64,000 bases of DNA from an uncultured Bryobacteraceae bacterium (GTDB taxonomy: Bacteria; Acidobacteriota; Terriglobia; Bryobacterales; Bryobacteraceae), in contig CALJAM010000026.1 in assembly GCA_938027685.1 (NCBI GenBank), positions 1-64,000 on the forward strand. Direction: 5' to 3'. The notes beneath the pieces are model-generated. The model was not told where the DNA came from. It saw nothing but the letters and a program-made list of their open reading frames with translations, and did not search any database. The position numbers and the translations under genes are program-made. Of this stretch, positions 54,620-62,856 are shown piece after piece; within the stretch, counting starts at the first letter, position 1; every line of letters begins with the position of its first letter.

Positions 54620-56908
54620 ATGCGTGAAGAATCGCCCTCCCAGTCTTCCCCGCCCGACGACCTTACGCTCCAGCGCGCGGCTGCGCTGTGGGGCGTCCTG
54701 CCCGAGTACGAAGACGTCATGGGCGTCAAGCACGCGCCTACCCGCCGGACCCAGATCGCCATCCTGAAGGCGCTGGGCGTTCCCGCCGACGACGAGCGCT
54801 CGCTGCGAAAGGCGATCGAGCAGCGGCTTCTCGAGGAGTGGGAAAAGCCGGTCGTGGAAACACTCGTCATCCTGGAGGGCGCCAGAGAATTTCCGCTGCA
54901 CGTCCCTGCCGCCGAGCGTGAGGGGGAGGTTTCCGTTGTGGTTCAATGCGAGGATGGTTGGCGGCAGCAGCGGCGCCTCCCCCTGGCCGACCTGCGCGAG
55001 CTGGCTCGAACCGAGATCCGCGGCCGCGACTTCGTGCGCCTGGCGGCGCCGCTCCCCCCCGGTCTGCCCCTCGGCTATCACGAGCTGCGCGTGGTGCTGC
55101 GCGCCGGTCGTCGGCGCCGCAGCGCGCGCTCGCGTCTCATCGTTTGCCCGCACCGTGTCTACGAGCCCGCCGGCCTGGACGGCGAAAGGCGCGCCGCCGG
55201 GCTGGCCGTCAGCCTCTACGGGCTGCGATCGGCACGCAACTGGGGCTGCGGCGACTTCACCGATCTGCAAGCGTTGATCGACTGGCTGGCGCAGGAAACG
55301 CCGGTCAGCTTCGTGGGATTGAACCCGCTGCACGCCATCGCCAACCGCCAGCCGTACAACACCAGCCCTTATCTGCCTTCCTCGGTCTATTACCGAAATC
55401 CGATTTACCTGGACGTCGAACGGATCGAGGATTTCCGGCGTTCCCGCCGCGCGCAGCGCTGGTTCCGCCGGCCCGAGATCCAGCAGGAACTCGAACGGCT
55501 GCGGAGCGCCGATCTCATCGAGTACGAGCGGGCCTGGGCGCTGAAGCTGCGGGCCCTGAAACTGGCTTTCGTGGAGTTTCTGCGGCGCGAGTGGCGGACC
55601 GGCTCGGCTCGCGCCGCGGAATTCAGGGCCTGGTGCCGGGCCGAAGGTGAAATGCTCGAGCGCTTCGCCGTGTATTGCGCGCTGGACGAGTGGATCCGCA
55701 GGCGTCATGCCGGCGTGTGGGTATGGCCCGACTGGCCCGCGCCGTACCGCGACCCGCGCTCGCGCGCCGTGCGCGAGTTCCGAAAAAAACACTGGCGTAG
55801 TGTTCTGTTTTATTGCTGGCTGCAGTGGGAGACCGATCGGCAACTGGCTGCCGCCCAGACTCATGCTTTGCAGCGCGGCCTCACTCTGGGCCTCTATCAC
55901 GATCTGGCTCTGGCCACGGACCGCTGTGGCGCCGATTTCTGGGCCTACCGCACGCTCTACGTTTCCGGTTGCCGCGTGGGCGCGCCCCCGGACGACTTCT
56001 CCCCTAGCGGCCAGGACTGGTCCTTTCCGCCCGTCGATGTGGATCGACTCCGACGCGACGGCTACCGCCTGTTCATCGCCGCCATCCGCAAGAACTGCGC
56101 TCACGGCGGCGCGCTGAGGCTGGATCACGTCATGCGGCTCTTCCGGCTCTACTGGATCCCGGAGGGCCATACGGCCGTCGAGGGCGCTTACTTGCGCCAG
56201 CCGCACGAGGATCTGCTGCCCATTCTTGCCCTGGAAAGCGTGCGCAACCGGGTGGTCATCGTGGGCGAGGATCTAGGTACGGTGTCGCCGGAGATCCGCG
56301 CCGAGCTTGCCCGCTGGGGCGTGCTCGGCTACCGCGTACCCTATTTCGAAAAACACCCCGACGGACGCTTCCGCAGACCCGAGCAGTACCCCGAGCAGAG
56401 TCTGGTTTGCTCGACCACGCACGATTTACCCACGCTGGCCGGCTTCTGGCTGTCCCGCGACATTGAGGCGCGTCGCCAGGCCCGCTTGATCGACGAGGAA
56501 ACCGCTCGCCGCCAACGCGCCGACCGGGAGGCGGACAAGCAGCGCCTGCTGGACCTGCTGCACGAGCTCGGCCTGCTGCCCGAATGGTTTCCGCGTCGGG
56601 CGGAGCTGGCGCCGGAGTGGGCAGGGGAACTGCACAATGCGATGGTCGGTTTGGTGAGCCTTTCGGCCTCGCGCCTGATGGTGCTGACCATCGAAGACCT
56701 GTTCAAAGAAACGGACCAGCAGAATTTACCCGCCTCAACCTGGCAGTACCCAAATTGGCGGCGGAAGACGCGATTGGCGCTGGAGGAGTTGGGCAGCCTC
56801 CCGTTTGCGCGGGATTGTACGCGTATGTTCCGCGAATGGGTGCGAAGGTCGGGGCGGGGCAGGCGCCCCGTGGCGCTGGCGCAGCAGCGCCCAACTGGGT
56901 CAGAATAA
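54620..56908 (+). CDS. malQ: 4-alpha-glucanotransferase (GH77)
   Basis: 762 residues from ATG 54620; the start is not fixed by a clear ribosome site. About 200 N-terminal residues form a beta-rich extension as in E. coli MalQ. The GH77 barrel follows with YGLRSARNWGCGDFTDL, GLNPLHAIANRQPYNTSPYL, the nucleophile Asp in LRLDHVMRLFRLYWIP, the acid Glu in VVIVGEDLGTVSPEI and CSTTHDLPTLAGFW. It transfers maltosyl or longer units between glucans (glycogen and maltodextrin metabolism). It lies 6 bp ahead of the PAP2 gene, though its function has no clear tie to the lipid genes downstream. Confidence 0.94.
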   Translation: MREESPSQSSPPDDLTLQRAAALWGVLPEYEDVMGVKHAPTRRTQIAILKALGVPADDERSLRKAIEQRLLEEWEKPVVETLVILEGAREFPLHVPAAEREGEVSVVVQCEDGWRQQRRLPLADLRELARTEIRGRDFVRLAAPLPPGLPLGYHELRVVLRAGRRRRSARSRLIVCPHRVYEPAGLDGERRAAGLAVSLYGLRSARNWGCGDFTDLQALIDWLAQETPVSFVGLNPLHAIANRQPYNTSPYLPSSVYYRNPIYLDVERIEDFRRSRRAQRWFRRPEIQQELERLRSADLIEYERAWALKLRALKLAFVEFLRREWRTGSARAAEFRAWCRAEGEMLERFAVYCALDEWIRRRHAGVWVWPDWPAPYRDPRSRAVREFRKKHWRSVLFYCWLQWETDRQLAAAQTHALQRGLTLGLYHDLALATDRCGADFWAYRTLYVSGCRVGAPPDDFSPSGQDWSFPPVDVDRLRRDGYRLFIAAIRKNCAHGGALRLDHVMRLFRLYWIPEGHTAVEGAYLRQPHEDLLPILALESVRNRVVIVGEDLGTVSPEIRAELARWGVLGYRVPYFEKHPDGRFRRPEQYPEQSLVCSTTHDLPTLAGFWLSRDIEARRQARLIDEETARRQRADREADKQRLLDLLHELGLLPEWFPRRAELAPEWAGELHNAMVGLVSLSASRLMVLTIEDLFKETDQQNLPASTWQYPNWRRKTRLALEELGSLPFARDCTRMFREWVRRSGRGRRPVALAQQRPTGSE

Positions 56909-56914
56909 CTGCGA

Positions 56915-57850
56915 ATGCCCCAGGTTCTGGCGGAACGGCTTTGGTCGGCATGGTCGCGCGCAGCAGCCCTGGCATGGCGGCCCGTGGATACCCTCATGGC
57001 CGCTTACCTGCTGACGACCGGGCTGCTTATCGGCTGGAATTACAGCCGTGTTCCCGCCGCCGGGCCCTTGTTGGCGCTACACGCGGCGGGCATCGTCCTG
57101 ATCGGCCTGCTCGCTCGCTCCGAGCTGACGCGCCGCGCGGGTGCGGTGTGGTTCCTCCGGCATTGGTACCCGCTGCTGTATCTGCCGGCTTGTTACAAGG
57201 AAATGGCGCTCCTGATCCCTGCCATCCGCCGGACCGATTACGATGCGGTGCTGGCGCGGTTCGATTTGGCGCTGTGGGGCGTCCATCCAACGCTGTGGCT
57301 CGAATCCTTCCAGCGCCCCTGGCTGACTGAGTTCCTGCAAGTCGTCTACACGCTGTTTTTCGCGGCCATCCTGGTGGTGGCGGGAATCCTGTGGCGGAGG
57401 AGAGCCATCGAGGAATTCCGCGCTTACGCTCTTGCCGTTTCGCTGGGGTTCCTTGCCTCCTTTGTCGGTTATTTCGCGGTGCCGGTCCGAGGCCCCCGGT
57501 TTCTTCTGGCCGATCTGTACCGGACGCCGCTCGAAGGGCTATGGTTTTTCGGCCCCTTGCGGGCGGGACTTGACTGGCTGGAATCCGTCCACTACGACTG
57601 CTTCCCCAGCGGCCATGTCGCACTGACGCTGATCGCCTGGTGGGGCGCCCGGCGGCTGTCCCGCGGCTGGGGCCGGCTCTACGCGCCCTACACCGCGCTG
57701 ATGGTCCTCGCGACCGTTTATCTCCGCTACCATTACACGGTAGACCTGCTGGCGGGCGCGGCGCTCGCCGCGGCGGTTCTGGCCGTGACGCCGCAGGCCG
57801 CGAAGGGGCGCGTAATTGGTCGCCATCGAAAGGGTGCAGAGCCGGCGTAG
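56915..57850 (+). CDS. Aur1/PAP2_3-like membrane phosphatase or phosphotransferase
   Basis: 311 residues with about seven hydrophobic segments. The acid-phosphatase motifs are YDCFPSGHVALTL and RYHYTVDLLAGAALA, each with its catalytic His, near residues 227-235 and 273-283. The first PAP2 motif (KxxxxxxRP) is replaced by VPVRGPRF, and the N-terminal part has AVLARFDLALWGVHPTLWL with FLQVVYTLFFAAILVV, as in the PAP2_3 family that includes inositol-phosphorylceramide synthases (Aur1). The next three genes point to sphingolipid synthesis, so a head-group transfer to ceramide is a fair hypothesis. It overlaps the acyltransferase gene by 35 bp. Confidence 0.82.
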   Translation: MPQVLAERLWSAWSRAAALAWRPVDTLMAAYLLTTGLLIGWNYSRVPAAGPLLALHAAGIVLIGLLARSELTRRAGAVWFLRHWYPLLYLPACYKEMALLIPAIRRTDYDAVLARFDLALWGVHPTLWLESFQRPWLTEFLQVVYTLFFAAILVVAGILWRRRAIEEFRAYALAVSLGFLASFVGYFAVPVRGPRFLLADLYRTPLEGLWFFGPLRAGLDWLESVHYDCFPSGHVALTLIAWWGARRLSRGWGRLYAPYTALMVLATVYLRYHYTVDLLAGAALAAAVLAVTPQAAKGRVIGRHRKGAEPA

Positions 57851-58928
57851 CCGGCGCGAATTCATCGAGTTCCCGTATCGCCACTACCGCTACGATCCCC
57901 ATTGGGTCCCCCCGCTGCGCGTCGAGCAGCGTGCGCTGTTCGACGTGCAGCGTCATCCCTTCTACCGTGAGGCGGAGATGGAACGGTTCCTCGCCGTGTC
58001 GGATGGGCGGACTGTCGGCCGCATCGCCGCCATCATCGACCACCGCTACATCCGTCATCAGGGCGAGACGGCGGGTTGGTTCGGCTTCTTCGAGACGGAA
58101 GAGGATCCCCAGATCGTGGCTGCGCTGGTGCAAGCCGCCTCGGACTGGCTGGTTCGCCGCGGCATCCGCGTCATGCGGGGGCCCATGAATCCTTCGGCCA
58201 ACTACGAATGCGGCCTGCTGGTGGAGGGCTTCGATTCGCCGCCCTACGTGATGATGCCCTACAATCCGCCGTACTACGGGCGGCTTTTGGAACAGGTCGG
58301 GCTGCGAAAGGCCCGGGATCTCTACGCGTACCACACGACGGCGACCGAGATCCAGCTCGCGCGGGCCGAGCGTTTGGCCGAGCGCGCCGCCCATGAACAC
58401 GGAGTGCGGGTGCGCCCGGTGCGCCTGAAGGAGTTCCAGGCGGAGCTGGAACGCTTCTTCCAGGTTTACAACGCCGCCTGGAGCCGCAACTGGGGGTTCG
58501 CGCCCATGAGCCGGGAGGAAATGGAGTATCTCGGCAGGCAGATGCGACCCATACTGGATCCCAACCTGGCCTTGCTGGCCGAGGTGCACGGGCGGGCGGT
58601 GGGCTGCGCGCTGGCGCTGCCGGACATCAACCAGGCGCTGCGCCATGCCCGCGGTCGCCTGTTTCCACTCGGGCTCCTCAGGATCCTGTATCATAAGCGT
58701 GCCATCCGGCGGATGCGCGTGCTGATCCTGGGTGTGCTGGAAGAGTACCGAACCATGGGCGCCGCCGCCGCCCTTTATGCCGCCCTGTTCCGCAACGGGC
58801 GGCGGGCTGGCTACGAGGAAGGTGAATTCTCCTGGGTGCTCGAAGATAATGTGATGATGAACCGTTCGCTCGAGGCGCTTGGCGCCCGGCGTTACAAGAC
58901 CTACCGCATCTACGAGTGGAAAGGGTGA
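57816..58928 (+). CDS. GNAT-fold acyltransferase, candidate bacterial ceramide synthase
   Basis: 370 residues, starting at TTG 57816 eight bases after GAAGGGG. The N-terminus RREFIEFPYRHYRYDPHWVP followed by PLRVEQRALFDVQRHPFY, and the phrase FLAVSDGRTVGRIAAIID, mark a large GNAT-type family often annotated as N-acetyltransferase. The C-terminal GNAT half has LALLAEVHGRAVGCALALPD and EYRTMGAAAALYAALFRNGR. Members near serine palmitoyltransferase genes, as in Caulobacter bCerS, acylate the sphingoid amine to ceramide. Here the SPT-like gene follows after 4 bp, so that role is likely, though inferred from context. Confidence 0.8.
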   Translation: MVAIERVQSRRSRREFIEFPYRHYRYDPHWVPPLRVEQRALFDVQRHPFYREAEMERFLAVSDGRTVGRIAAIIDHRYIRHQGETAGWFGFFETEEDPQIVAALVQAASDWLVRRGIRVMRGPMNPSANYECGLLVEGFDSPPYVMMPYNPPYYGRLLEQVGLRKARDLYAYHTTATEIQLARAERLAERAAHEHGVRVRPVRLKEFQAELERFFQVYNAAWSRNWGFAPMSREEMEYLGRQMRPILDPNLALLAEVHGRAVGCALALPDINQALRHARGRLFPLGLLRILYHKRAIRRMRVLILGVLEEYRTMGAAAALYAALFRNGRRAGYEEGEFSWVLEDNVMMNRSLEALGARRYKTYRIYEWKG

Positions 58929-58932
58929 ACCG

Positions 58933-60213
58933 ATGAGCTCGGACGCTGGCAGCGCAACCCCAGGCCAGGCGATCATCGCCCGGCCGGACCTTTTCGAGAA
59001 GTGCCGTAACTACGGTCGCATGGTGGGGGGCCACTTCATGAGGCCCCAGGACGCCAAGGCCGCGGGTCTATACACCTATTTCGAGGTCTTCGGGCCGCGC
59101 GAGGGCTGTCGGCCCGGGGAAGTCCGCTGGGGCGACCGAACCGTGCTGATGTTCGGCTCCAACGACTACCTTGATCTGATCAACCATCCCCGGGTCAAGG
59201 AAGCCGCCATGGAAGCCGTCAGGCGCTACGGCAGCGGGTGCAGCGGCTCCCGCCTGCTGAACGGGACGCTGGACCTGCACGTGCGCCTGGAAGCGGAGCT
59301 GGCCGCCTTCGTGGGCAAGCAGGCGGCGATGACTTTCGGCACGGGGTTTCAGACCAACTACGCCACCCTCAGCGGCTTGACCGAAAAGGGCGACGTGCTG
59401 GTGTGCGACCACAACCTTCATGCCAGCCTCGTCGAAGGCGCGCTGCGCTCAGGCGCCCGCAAGGTGCGCTTCCGCCACAACGACATGGACCATCTGGAGC
59501 GCTGCCTGAAAGCCTGCGCTCCGGACGAGCGCATTCTCATCGTCAGCGAGAGCGTCTTCAGCATGGAGGGCGACGTAGCCGATCTGCGCAACACCGTGCG
59601 GCTGGCCCGGCAGTACCACGCGCGGGTGTTCGTCGACGAGGCCCACGGCATCGGCGTCTTCGGCCCTACCGGCGCGGGCGTGGCCGAAGAGCAGGGCGTG
59701 CTGCCCGAGGTGGACATCGTCATGGGTACCTTCAGCAAGTCCTTCGCCTCCGTGGGCGGGTTCGTGGCCGCCGAGCAGGACGTCATCGAGTACCTTCGCC
59801 ACACCACGCGCGGCTTCGTCTTCTCGGCGGCTCTGCCGCCGGCCTCGGTGGCCGCGGTGTTGGCCGCACTCGAGATCATCCGCCAGGAGCCGGAGCGGCG
59901 CCTGCGTCTGCTGCGCACGGCGCAACGGTTGCGCAACGAGCTGCGCTCGCGCGGCTTCTGGGTCTACGATGGCCAGACGCCTATCGTCCCGGTGGTGATC
60001 CCCAACGAGCTGGATCTGTTCCGCGTGGTGCGCGCGCTGCTGGAGGAGGGCATTTATGTGAACCCCGTGCTCAAGCCGGCCGCTTCGCAAAATCTCGTTC
60101 GCATCTCCTGCACCGCCGCCCACACCGACGCCCACGTGGATCGGCTGGTGGAAACGCTGGTCGCCGTCACGCGACGCCTGAATATCGACCTGACGCCTGC
60201 ACAAGCGATATGA
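58933..60213 (+). CDS. Serine-palmitoyltransferase-like alpha-oxoamine synthase
   Basis: 426 residues from ATG 58933 after AAGGGTGA. PLP-dependent fold type I, alpha-oxoamine synthase family: FGSNDYLDLINHPRVKEAA, YGSGCSGSRLLNGTLDLHVR, VFVDEAHGIGVFGPTGAG and the PLP Lys in GTFSKSFASVGGF. The long N-terminus before the core (YTYFEVFGPREG) is typical of serine palmitoyltransferases rather than of KBL or BioF. SPT condenses L-serine with an acyl thioester to 3-ketosphinganine, the first step of sphingolipid synthesis. It is coupled to the carbamoyltransferase gene (ATGA overlap). A 3-keto reductase is not in the window. Confidence 0.88.
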   Translation: MSSDAGSATPGQAIIARPDLFEKCRNYGRMVGGHFMRPQDAKAAGLYTYFEVFGPREGCRPGEVRWGDRTVLMFGSNDYLDLINHPRVKEAAMEAVRRYGSGCSGSRLLNGTLDLHVRLEAELAAFVGKQAAMTFGTGFQTNYATLSGLTEKGDVLVCDHNLHASLVEGALRSGARKVRFRHNDMDHLERCLKACAPDERILIVSESVFSMEGDVADLRNTVRLARQYHARVFVDEAHGIGVFGPTGAGVAEEQGVLPEVDIVMGTFSKSFASVGGFVAAEQDVIEYLRHTTRGFVFSAALPPASVAAVLAALEIIRQEPERRLRLLRTAQRLRNELRSRGFWVYDGQTPIVPVVIPNELDLFRVVRALLEEGIYVNPVLKPAASQNLVRISCTAAHTDAHVDRLVETLVAVTRRLNIDLTPAQAI

Positions 60214-61787
60214 TCATCCTGGGCATCGGGGGCATCCTCAGCGAGGCCGCAGCCGCCGTTCTCAAGGATGGGATGCTCGCCGGCGCCGCCGAGCAGCGCA
60301 AGCTCGTCCGCCGTCTGCGCCCCGGAGAGCTGCCCGAGGAGGCCATCGCCTGCTGCCTTTCGATGGCGGGCGTCGGCCCGAACGAGGTGGACTGCGTGGC
60401 GGTGGCGCGGCCGCTGGCCATCGGCCCTGAGGCGTCCATGCACTTGCAACTGCGGGCACGCTTCCCCGGCAGCCGCATCGTGGTCGTCGACCACCACACG
60501 GCCCACGCCGCCTCGGCCTATTTCGCCTCGCCCTTCGAAGAGGCCGTCGTGCTCACATTGGATGCCACGGGCGACTACCGTTGCGGCGCGCGCTGGATCG
60601 CTGCGGACAACAGCCTCACTCTGGACAAGGAACTCTATTACCCGGACTCGCTGGGCGACCTTTACGCTCGCGTGACCGCTCTGCTCGGATTCGAAGCTCA
60701 CGCCGACGAGCATAAGGTGCAATGGCTTTCGGCGCAGGGCGACGACCGTTTTGAGCCGTTGTTTACCGAGATCCTGGGCATGGGCGACGGCGACTGGCCG
60801 CGCCTGGATCGCTCCTATTTCGACAGCGAACGTCTCGGACGCGGCGGCTTCAGCGCACGCTTTTACCGGCGGCTGGGTCTTGCGGACGGCGCTCCTATAC
60901 CTGAATCCCTTCGCGCGGCGGTCGCCGGCGGGTTGCAGCGCGCGATCGAGCGGGCCGTGCTGTGCATGGCAGGCAGCGGGCGCAACCTCTGCCTGGCGGG
61001 AGGGTTGGCGCACAACGCCTTGCTGGTGGCCGCGCTGGAGCAGTCGGGCCGCTGGGAAAACGTCTTCGTGCAGCCCGCTGCGGGCAACGCAGGAACCGCG
61101 CTGGGCGCCGCCTTCTGGGCCTGGCACAACGTTTACGGGGAGCGGCAACGCGCGGGCATCGGCAACCTCTGCCTAGGTCCGGAATACGACGCTGAGCAGA
61201 TCAAGCAGGTGCTCGAGAACTGCAAACTGCGTTTTCGCTACCTGCTCACCACCGAGGAGCTGATCGAAACCGCCGTGCGCGAGTTGGGCGACAACAAGAT
61301 CATTGCCTGGATGCACGGTCGCATGGAGTTCGGCCCGCGCGCCTTGGGCAATCGCAGCATCCTGGCCTCGCCGCTCGATCCTTACTCCACCGAGAATCTC
61401 AACATTTACATCAAGCACCGCGAGCCCTTCCGCAAGTTCGCCGCCTCCGTGCCCGCCGAACTGGCAGGCGAGTACTTCCAGGTCGGACCGAACGCCCGCT
61501 TCCTCGCCACGGTGGGGCGTGTGCGCCCGGCGCACCGGAAAACCTTCGCGAGCGCCCTGCTCGACGAAGACCGCATCCGCGTCCACACCGTCTCCGAGCA
61601 GGACAATCCGCTCTACTGGCGCCTGCTGCACGCCGCCGGCAAAGTCACGGGACTGCCCGTGCTCTACAACACCTCGTTCAACCTGTTCGGGGATCCCCTG
61701 GTCTGCACGCCGCGCGACGCCGTGCGCAGCTTTTACTCCTCGGGCATTGATTCCATGTTCGTCGGCCAGTTCTGGCTTCAGAAGTGA
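60210..61787 (+). CDS. NodU/CmcH-type carbamoyltransferase
   Basis: 525 residues from the ATG that overlaps the SPT stop. The N-terminal ASKHA-like domain has VVDHHTAHAASAYFASPFEE (the HxxxH metal/active-site pattern), LTLDATGDYR and AHADEHKVQWLSAQG; then LCLAGGLAHNALLVAAL. The C-terminal Sua5/YrdC-like carbamoyl-adenylate part has WMHGRMEFGPRALGNRSILA, RKFAASVPAE and PVLYNTSFNLFGDPLVCTPR. Such enzymes carbamoylate hydroxyl groups of sugars or antibiotics with carbamoyl phosphate and ATP. A place in a sphingolipid-type operon is unusual and suggests a carbamoylated lipid head group. Confidence 0.9.
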   Translation: MIILGIGGILSEAAAAVLKDGMLAGAAEQRKLVRRLRPGELPEEAIACCLSMAGVGPNEVDCVAVARPLAIGPEASMHLQLRARFPGSRIVVVDHHTAHAASAYFASPFEEAVVLTLDATGDYRCGARWIAADNSLTLDKELYYPDSLGDLYARVTALLGFEAHADEHKVQWLSAQGDDRFEPLFTEILGMGDGDWPRLDRSYFDSERLGRGGFSARFYRRLGLADGAPIPESLRAAVAGGLQRAIERAVLCMAGSGRNLCLAGGLAHNALLVAALEQSGRWENVFVQPAAGNAGTALGAAFWAWHNVYGERQRAGIGNLCLGPEYDAEQIKQVLENCKLRFRYLLTTEELIETAVRELGDNKIIAWMHGRMEFGPRALGNRSILASPLDPYSTENLNIYIKHREPFRKFAASVPAELAGEYFQVGPNARFLATVGRVRPAHRKTFASALLDEDRIRVHTVSEQDNPLYWRLLHAAGKVTGLPVLYNTSFNLFGDPLVCTPRDAVRSFYSSGIDSMFVGQFWLQK

Positions 61788-61799
61788 GACGTTCCCCGG

Positions 61800-62856
61800 T
61801 CACGCAGCGCCGCGGGCCCGAGCGATCACGCCCCGCGTGTGTTCGGCCGCCAGCCGTGCGCCGGCATCCACGTAGTCGATGCTCACTGTCCGGCCGTGGA
61901 CGACCGGCAGCGGGTGGCAAAGCTCCTAGTTCATCCAACCTCGGCAACCGATCTCGCAAAGGGCGCCCGCGAAGGCCGGGTGGTAATCGCTGGCCGAATC
62001 CTCGTAGCCGAACCTCTCGTAACGGCCGTCTGGGAGGGGGCGCAGTGAAGCCCTGCGTATAGGGCCGGCTGGGTCGACTCGTTCGTATTCCCCGCCGAAG
62101 TGTGATTGCACCGGAAGATCCCCCGTTTCGAGCACCGCGCGCCGCACGTTAGCCGGATTCTTGTTCTTGAGGATGGGTGCGTCGAGGCAGGCCTTCAGGT
62201 GAGGCGAATCGACCTCGCGGATCATGCGTAGCATCTGCCGGTAGTTGTCGATCAGGGGCTTGTGATGGTGAAGCGCCGGCGTGACGCCGAAATCGCCGGC
62301 GTAACGCGCCGCCTCGACCAGGCACTGGCGGCACCACTGCCAAGCCTGCTCCACCGGCACGCCCTCGTGCGCCGCATCCCAGGTGCGCCGGGCCACGTCG
62401 TAGCGGCCGCCGCCTTGGGGCGCCTTCACGGCCCCCGGCCACGCCGGAAAGAACGCGCAGGACGCGTGCGCTGAAGTCGGCCGTCATGCGGATCATCTCG
62501 CGCACCCAGGCGAGTTGCGCCTCGCGGTGTTCGGGGATGGAGCTACTGAAGTCGGTATTAGCCGCCACACCCGCAATCGCGATCCCACGGTCCTCGGCGT
62601 ATTGTCGCAGCTTGCGGCAACGCTCGGTCGTCCAGAGCAGGGGGCACCCGTGCGGGCGTTTGCCGTCGGTTTCGATTCCCTGGTAGCCGAAACGGCGCGC
62701 CCGCTCGACGAGCCGCTCCCACGTCAGCGCTTCGCCGCGATACCACAGCCCGAGATACGTGATGCTATAAAGGCCGATCTTGATCTCTGCGGGCGGAGGC
62801 GGAGCGGCGGCGGCCGTTGCGCCCAAGAGTTGCCGCCGTGTGAAGTCGCGCGGCAT
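61800..62856 (-). pseudogene. Tat-exported sugar-phosphate isomerase/epimerase-like gene with frameshift and internal stop
   Basis: The frame opens at ATG 62856 with a twin-arginine signal (TRRQLLGATA) and a TIM-barrel of the xylose-isomerase/AP-endonuclease-2 kind (IKIGLYSITYLGLWYRGEAL, RARRFGYQGIETDGKR). Near 62448-62454 the frame breaks: removing one base of GTTCTTTCC restores RVFPAWPGAVKAPQGGGRYD. The second frame goes on (GVTPALHHHKPLIDN, LKACLDAPI, VQSHFGGEYERV) until TAG at 61926-61928, right where the family has a Tyr before E(L/M)C. After this stop the same frame runs 41 more codons (ELCHPLPVVHGRTVSIDYVD) to TGA 61800-61802. Two independent lesions argue for a real pseudogene rather than one sequencing error. 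Confidence 0.8.

Follow-up and report, generated by a model that had tools for sequence, protein, structure and literature searches.

A probable shortened sphingolipid cassette beside an order-wide carbamoyltransferase gene in an uncultured Bryobacteraceae bacterium

Four co-directional genes lie at positions 56915-61787 on the forward strand of the window, that is, the whole 64,000-nucleotide stretch analyzed here, which forms the start of a 132.6-kb contig (C26) in the 3.93-Mb, 45-contig genome (G000) of an uncultured Bryobacteraceae bacterium. The first gene (56915..57850, 311 amino acids) encodes a PAP2_3 membrane protein (PF14378, 65 bits, E = 1e-17), which is a candidate head-group transferase resembling Aur1 and inositol phosphorylceramide (IPC) synthase. 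It is followed by a gene with a TTG start (57816..58928, 370 amino acids) for a GNAT acyltransferase of the YghO kind (PF00583 Acetyltransf_1, 23.6 bits), a candidate ceramide synthase, and by a gene (58933..60213, 426 amino acids) for an alpha-oxoamine synthase of the serine palmitoyltransferase (SPT) type, which matches Pfam Aminotran_1_2 and has SerpalmtaseCFB as its best NCBIfam model. The last gene (60210..61787, 525 amino acids) encodes a class III carbamoyltransferase (CT) of the NodU/TobZ type, with the Pfam domains Carbam_trans_N and Carbam_trans_C. The junctions between the four genes, read from the sequence, are -35, +4 and -4 nucleotides, the last being an ATGA overlap between SPT and CT at 60210. 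An initial annotation of this DNA had listed four co-directional genes with these gaps and families, which is borne out by the sequence and by the Pfam and NCBIfam matches. A codon-usage gene caller also picks the same four genes, with a later start for PAP2_3 (56984), but this is no independent proof because the caller was trained partly on these genes.

The first three genes belong to a cluster that is conserved among relatives. In a sample of 150 genomes of the same order, SPT orthologues (at least 68% identity) are found in 20 genomes, GNAT orthologues (at least 52% identity) in 22, and both together in 20; GNAT matches at E = 1e-30 occur in 26 genomes, four of which were excluded at 29-31% identity. 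Co-occurrence across the 150 genomes was assessed by Fisher tests that take related genomes as independent. We fetched 20 SPT regions from 19 genomes, four of which start at or inside SPT owing to contig ends. Wherever there is sequence to judge, GNAT lies directly upstream of SPT (16/16 regions) and PAP2_3 lies before GNAT (15/15). A short-chain dehydrogenase/reductase (SDR) gene of the NAD-epimerase type comes next upstream in 13 of 15 regions, with a cut-off copy in L117 and none in L129, and 14 of 15 have a DUF3047-like gene still farther upstream (assigned by eye, with Pfam confirming DUF3047 for one member). The order in the relatives is thus DUF3047-SDR-PAP2_3-GNAT-SPT, and the cassette in the window is without the SDR. 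The initial annotation had noted that a ketosphinganine reductase is missing here and should be encoded elsewhere, and a candidate SDR indeed lies on another contig of the same genome (C35:11022-11972). It matches a cluster SDR at 54% (E = 2.5e-99), whereas the next SDR of the genome reaches 32%, and it groups with 10 of 11 cluster SDRs in a tree built with 11 of the 13 complete ones (L118 and L127, missed by the motif filter, were omitted).

The synthase itself is set apart from the other alpha-oxoamine synthases. Its score against SerpalmtaseCFB is 446 bits and that against the BioF model is 372 bits. Its best matches in PDB are the SPTs 8guh and 3a2b (337.7 bits), and the best BioF/KBL-type enzyme reaches 250.5 bits. 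In a tree of 43 rows, the window SPT falls inside a 27-row clade (support 99/95) together with synthases of Bacteroides, Parabacteroides, Rubrobacter, Aureispira, Streptomyces, Roseomonas, Priestia and the E. coli yghO locus, which we presume to be SPT-like, mainly from their gene company. BioF, HemA and KBL form the other side of the tree with three paralogues from the order (8 rows, support 99/96). A phylogeny placing the synthase with KBL or BioF had been named beforehand as evidence against a sphingolipid role; the tree places it apart, and a BioF, KBL or HemA identity is rejected on this placement. We made no use of the inner branching of the tree because several rows are long-branched or unusual in composition. 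A second clade of oxoamine synthases from order genomes (L103, L105-L107 and L110-L112; 39-42% to the window SPT) is placed next to the SPT clade, and two of these genomes have another, more distant synthase gene (33%) adjoining the second-clade synthase (G045:C33 and G054:C57).

In the ceramide pathway of Caulobacter, bCerS is a GNAT protein and CerR an epimerase-type SDR, and the gene company of GNAT homologs elsewhere fits such a role. We viewed the neighborhoods of 6 of the 44 plasmid records with a GNAT match, whose GNATs share 34-44% identity with that of the window. A synthase and an SDR stand beside GNAT in four of the six (Rubrobacter, Aureispira, E. coli and Streptomyces). The gene order is synthase-GNAT-SDR in Rubrobacter and Streptomyces, and SDR, synthase, GNAT in Aureispira. 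The E. coli yghO locus (L170, NZ_MG591698 3855-16967) comprises an oxoamine synthase, an acyl carrier protein, an SDR, a fatty acyl-AMP ligase and YghO, a composition like that of a sphingolipid-type cluster. The proposal that GNAT is the ceramide-making acyltransferase is therefore supported by its gene company on four of the six plasmids and by its co-occurrence with SPT. A structure prediction from the single GNAT sequence was of no use, with a predicted local distance difference test score (pLDDT) of 34.5. GNAT relatives were also found, at E = 1e-30, in 79 of 294 acidobacterial genomes outside the order, so the capacity to make sphingolipids may be common across the phylum.

The PAP2 family has catalytic His-His-Asp motifs, and the window protein carries all three residues as H234, H273 and D277. 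All 15 aligned rows, that of the window among them and the short L117 sequence omitted, share R195, the PSGH motif (with H234), R271, H273 and D277. The most natural guess is that PAP2_3 would be an Aur1-like head-group transferase, as is Bacteroides BT_1522. Inositol-phosphate synthase was considered as a marker of an inositol head group and was rejected, since it is nearly universal in the order: it is found in 20/20 cassette genomes and in 141 of the 150 order genomes, and as 140 of the 150 score above the cut-off it is uninformative on the head group.

The distribution of CT does not follow that of the cassette. CT is present in 148 of the 150 order genomes at E = 1e-60 and at orthologue level in 145, because the best E-values in G086, G131 and G149 are only 1e-73 to 1e-79. 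In a phylum sample of 297 genomes, the three members of the order have CT at 62% identity or more, and among the listed matches (E = 1e-60 or better) none exceeds 44% identity in the 294 genomes outside the order. CT occurs in 18 of the 20 SPT genomes (two SPT-bearing genomes, G086 and G131, have no orthologue-level CT) versus 127 of the 130 others, which shows no positive association. We further inspected the CT loci of the best 80 of 150 database matches, of 3.0 to 21.6 kb in length, the absence of SPT holding within that sequence. SPT adjoins CT in one of the 80 (L003, 88%), which is a 4,612-bp contig (G130:C238) of a congener, the RSWS6 metagenome-assembled genome; in L048 a 38% synthase lies about 8 kb off, and neither GNAT nor PAP2_3 was found in the sequence of the 80 loci. 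Among the 19 other SPT genomes, SPT and CT share a contig in G130 and lie on different contigs in 16, and CT is absent from the fetched SPT regions except the one from this same congener (L136, SPT-CT). The initial annotation had suggested a search for conserved adjacency of SPT and CT in other acidobacterial genomes; the search returned 1 of 80 loci and 1 of 19 other SPT genomes, both being the same congener contig. A lack of such linkage had been named beforehand as evidence against the proposed unit, and these counts show that lack.

It is also evident that CT has a usual place in the order. Among the 77 loci with at least 300 nucleotides upstream, the gene directly before CT is glnS in 41, gltX in 22, ksgA in one and another gene in 13 (L003 included), so that gltX or glnS precedes CT in 63/77. 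The loci L137-L152 show a conserved block with gltX and/or glnS, often ksgA, and CT last, preceded in several by sigma and anti-sigma factor genes (partly by eye). In the window genome, genes for a sigma factor and an anti-sigma factor stand with ksgA and gltX at C26:93938-97536, and a sulfurylase-like gene comes next (by eye). This gltX (C26:96127-97536) lies 34 kb from CT and has the sulfurylase-like gene, not CT, as its successor; the only CT copy of the genome is the one in the window, and the glnS model matched only that gltX. In the congener G130, one contig end carries malQ-PAP2_3-GNAT and a different one SPT-CT, and the arrangement thus belongs to the genus (2/2 genomes).

The gene malQ, for a 4-alpha-glucanotransferase of family GH77 (54620..56908, forward strand, by gene call; Pfam Glyco_hydro_77, E = 7.6e-116, 388 bits, in a frame from 54572), ends 6 nucleotides before PAP2_3, which extends the tight co-directional run to five genes. 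We know of no lipid role for malQ, and it is not thought to be part of the lipid pathway. Tight packing alone therefore says little at this locus, given that malQ sits 6 bp upstream. Beyond CT, on the reverse strand, a sugar-isomerase-like gene (61926-62856) is apparently split over two frames (61926-62429 and 62149-62856) by a frameshift or a sequencing error (by eye).

Taken together, gene families, tree placement, conserved clusters, co-occurrence, distribution and linkage lead us to regard it as probable that 56915-60213 is a shortened bacterial sphingolipid cassette and that CT is one of the order's core genes, separate from the cassette and brought next to it by rearrangement. We stop short of greater confidence because SPT, bCerS and CerR were assigned mainly from neighboring genes and the names of PDB entries rather than from reference sequences of characterized bCerS or CerR. 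From the families and gene company, SPT would condense serine with a fatty acyl thioester and GNAT would N-acylate the 3-keto base; the SDR reductase encoded on contig C35 would then reduce the ketone, and the PAP2_3 membrane protein would add a phospho-head group. CT would stand apart from these steps as a core gene of the order, which in an ancestor of the genus may have moved from its customary position after ksgA-gltX(-glnS) to one behind SPT. All of the enzymatic steps are inferred, as are serine as the substrate, the head group and a rearrangement as what brought SPT and CT together. The adjacency of SPT and CT is probably a genus-level rearrangement, which in the simplest account placed CT on one side of a shortened cassette and malQ on the other. 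The initial annotation fitted the first three gene products to base condensation, N-acylation and head-group transfer; this sphingolipid reading is well supported at the gene level by the SPT tree, by the gene company of GNAT and its co-occurrence with SPT, and by the reductase candidate. Its further proposal, a CT role in carbamoylating the ceramide or the head group, fails on linkage and on co-occurrence. The locus also shows how a gene can overlap a pathway gene by 4 bp in one genus and not beyond it.

Several observations weigh against this interpretation of the locus. The window SPT reaches none of the NCBIfam SPT cut-offs (446/640, 365/500 and 276/670 bits), and the PDB entries that we take to be SPTs of the Sphingomonas type (2x8u and 2jgt) score at most 236.7 bits, below the BioF/KBL-type enzyme (250.5 bits). 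None of the synthases in the SPT clade carries an SPT annotation in its own record. Two order genomes (G038 and G137; L203 and L204) carry PAP2_3-GNAT without this SPT; these pairs are perhaps served by another synthase in the genome. On the plasmid of Roseomonas marmotae an SDR lies near GNAT with no synthase within 6 kb, and on that of Diaphorobacter neither is found. The support for the SDR grouping is moderate (88/91), and one cluster SDR (L132) falls just outside it. The ATGA junction of SPT and CT (gap -4) is kept in the congener G130, so the SPT-CT arrangement predates the split of the two species and might reflect some shared use in this genus. In addition, the likeness to the Caulobacter pathway is drawn from described activities and protein families rather than from Caulobacter sequences.

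The carbamoyltransferase deserves consideration in its own right. A structural model built from 34 sequences (pLDDT 86) aligns with TobZ (3ver) at Z = 38.9, with a root-mean-square deviation of 2.7 over 506 residues, and superposes along its full length on TobZ, GdmN and NovN (Z about 38), with both the Kae1-like and the YrdC-like domains present. The general-base histidine of TobZ is presumably H14. According to the title of its PDB entry, the H14N variant of TobZ was crystallized with carbamoyl-adenylate. For GdmN, excerpts of PMC9633730 state that His27 deprotonates the acceptor, that Tyr82 is also needed, that the H27N and Y82F variants are dead, and that His27 is universally conserved in the subclade. 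The quantum region described in the same excerpts includes the iron, His133, His137 and residues 156 and 333, the last two printed as Glu but being Asp in the GdmN chain. In our alignment, His27 of GdmN and NovN corresponds to Ser11 in the window CT, Tyr82 of NovN to Ala66, and residue 333 of GdmN to Asn293. The alignment has 98 rows including 7 duplicate pairs (91 distinct orthologues, with L003 representing the G130 contig). His occupies position 11 in 8 of the 91 and has been lost from 83, Asn stands at position 293 in 90, and Arg67 and Pro68 are each found in 90. On the other hand, the metal-binding pair H95 and H99, together with D118, E167, K169, N269, R377, R382 and the NTSFN motif, is invariant in 98/98 rows. 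Among 18 paralogues, 15 have Asp at position 293, whereas the three closest ones outside the order (L190-L192) have Asn, so this change is older than the order. His at column 11 is kept in 13 of the 18 (by eye, the column being shifted in several paralogues). In a quick CT tree, the rows with His belong to the sister family f3, apart from a few; the figure of 5 changes obtained for this column is affected by the same shift. Between the window CT and its congener, the nonsynonymous divergence (dN) is 0.08 and the synonymous divergence (dS) 0.94; a decaying gene is not favored by this dN/dS of about 0.09 against one congener.

The sequences thus indicate that CT is under purifying selection with a changed transfer site, keeping the half that would make carbamoyl-adenylate while the transfer site has lost the catalytic His and the Asp near the metal. 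This could be explained, tentatively, by an active enzyme whose rebuilt transfer site includes a conserved Arg-Pro of its own, and which would make carbamoyl-adenylate and deliver the carbamoyl moiety, by different chemistry, to an acceptor of a new kind. If so, nearly all members of one acidobacterial order would share this conserved function, for the most part encoded alongside gltX/glnS. Alternatively, CT could be a pseudoenzyme or a regulatory protein that has kept the fold and lost carbamoyl transfer, as might be expected from the loss of the acceptor His in 83/91 orthologues and Asn at residue 293 in 90/91, and from the inactivity of GdmN with a His-to-Asn change at the same residue (excerpt of PMC9633730). 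We consider this rather unlikely in view of the residues invariant in 98 rows, of Arg67-Pro68 in 90/91 and of the low dN relative to dS. In either case, a conserved CT subfamily that is order-specific and has an altered active site merits attention on its own.

The product of the cassette could also be a related amide lipid, with a synthase that uses another amino acid such as alanine, glycine or cysteate. The window SPT stays below every NCBIfam SPT cut-off, the clade of the order sits on a long branch (length 1), and a cysteate acyltransferase (28eh) is among the PDB matches; the best SPTs, however, outscore the cysteate enzyme (337.7 versus 224.6 bits), and the company of GNAT and SDR also argues for a sphingolipid, which makes the amide lipid unlikely. 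For CT, gene order invites the speculation that it acts in translation, on a tRNA, an rRNA or a translation protein. Consistent with this, gltX or glnS lies directly upstream in 63/77 loci, the first half of the CT model resembles YgjD/TsaD (Z = 23.1), and a known carbamoyltransferase acts on 5-hydroxymethylcytosine in DNA and, at much lower yield, on RNA (excerpt of PMC8670742). Gene order alone is nevertheless weak evidence, as the window itself shows, and the gene has left the gltX/glnS place in this genus without being lost, so we regard a role in translation as improbable. A literature search for carbamoyltransferase with Acidobacteria or gltX gave nothing relevant among the matches listed.

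Recruitment of CT in this genus to carbamoylate the ceramide or its head group, which would yield a carbamoylated sphingolipid, was rejected as the best explanation and is very improbable: NodU carbamoylates lipid-carrying Nod factors, and the ATGA coupling is kept in both sampled genomes of the genus, but CT orthologues (145/150) far outnumber SPT (20/150) with no positive association, SPT adjoins CT in 1/80 loci, malQ shares the tight run in 2/2 genomes, and the His that deprotonates the acceptor in GdmN is Ser in the window CT. Among the matches listed by a literature search for carbamoyltransferase with sphingolipid or ceramide, nothing relevant was found.

Whether Acidobacteriota make sphingolipids was asked openly in a soil lipidome study (excerpt of PMC9969633). 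The sole match of a literature search for Acidobacteria with sphingolipid and serine palmitoyltransferase was PMC11334938, in whose excerpted text Acidobacteria appears once, in a reference. With the cassette in 20/150 order genomes and GNAT relatives in 79/294 genomes of the phylum, the question becomes testable in cultured strains.

Bacterial ceramide genes are said to be often clustered (excerpt of PMC11334938), and the shortened cassette can be compared with several known systems. In the Caulobacter pathway, the reduction by CerR follows the action of Spt and bCerS (excerpt of PMC11087976), and the same three activities, of an SPT, an acyltransferase and a reductase, are proposed here; unlike in the Caulobacter set of Spt, bCerS and CerR, the reductase of the window genome is encoded on another contig and the cluster includes PAP2_3. 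The loci of E. coli (yghO, NZ_MG591698), Rubrobacter, Streptomyces and Aureispira likewise have a homologous synthase, GNAT and SDR close together, but no PAP2 or DUF3047 product is named within their 4-6 kb flanks, and the yghO locus differs further by an acyl carrier protein and a fatty acyl-AMP ligase beside these genes. The Aur1-like inositol phosphorylceramide synthase BT_1522 of Bacteroides (excerpt of PMC9246714) represents the enzyme kind proposed for PAP2_3, a proposal made by Pfam family and motif only. As for CT, it resembles TobZ, GdmN and NovN in its whole-length fold (Z about 38), its two domains and its core motifs, and differs from them by substitutions at the acceptor His, at the conserved Tyr and at residue 333, an Asp in the chain of GdmN.

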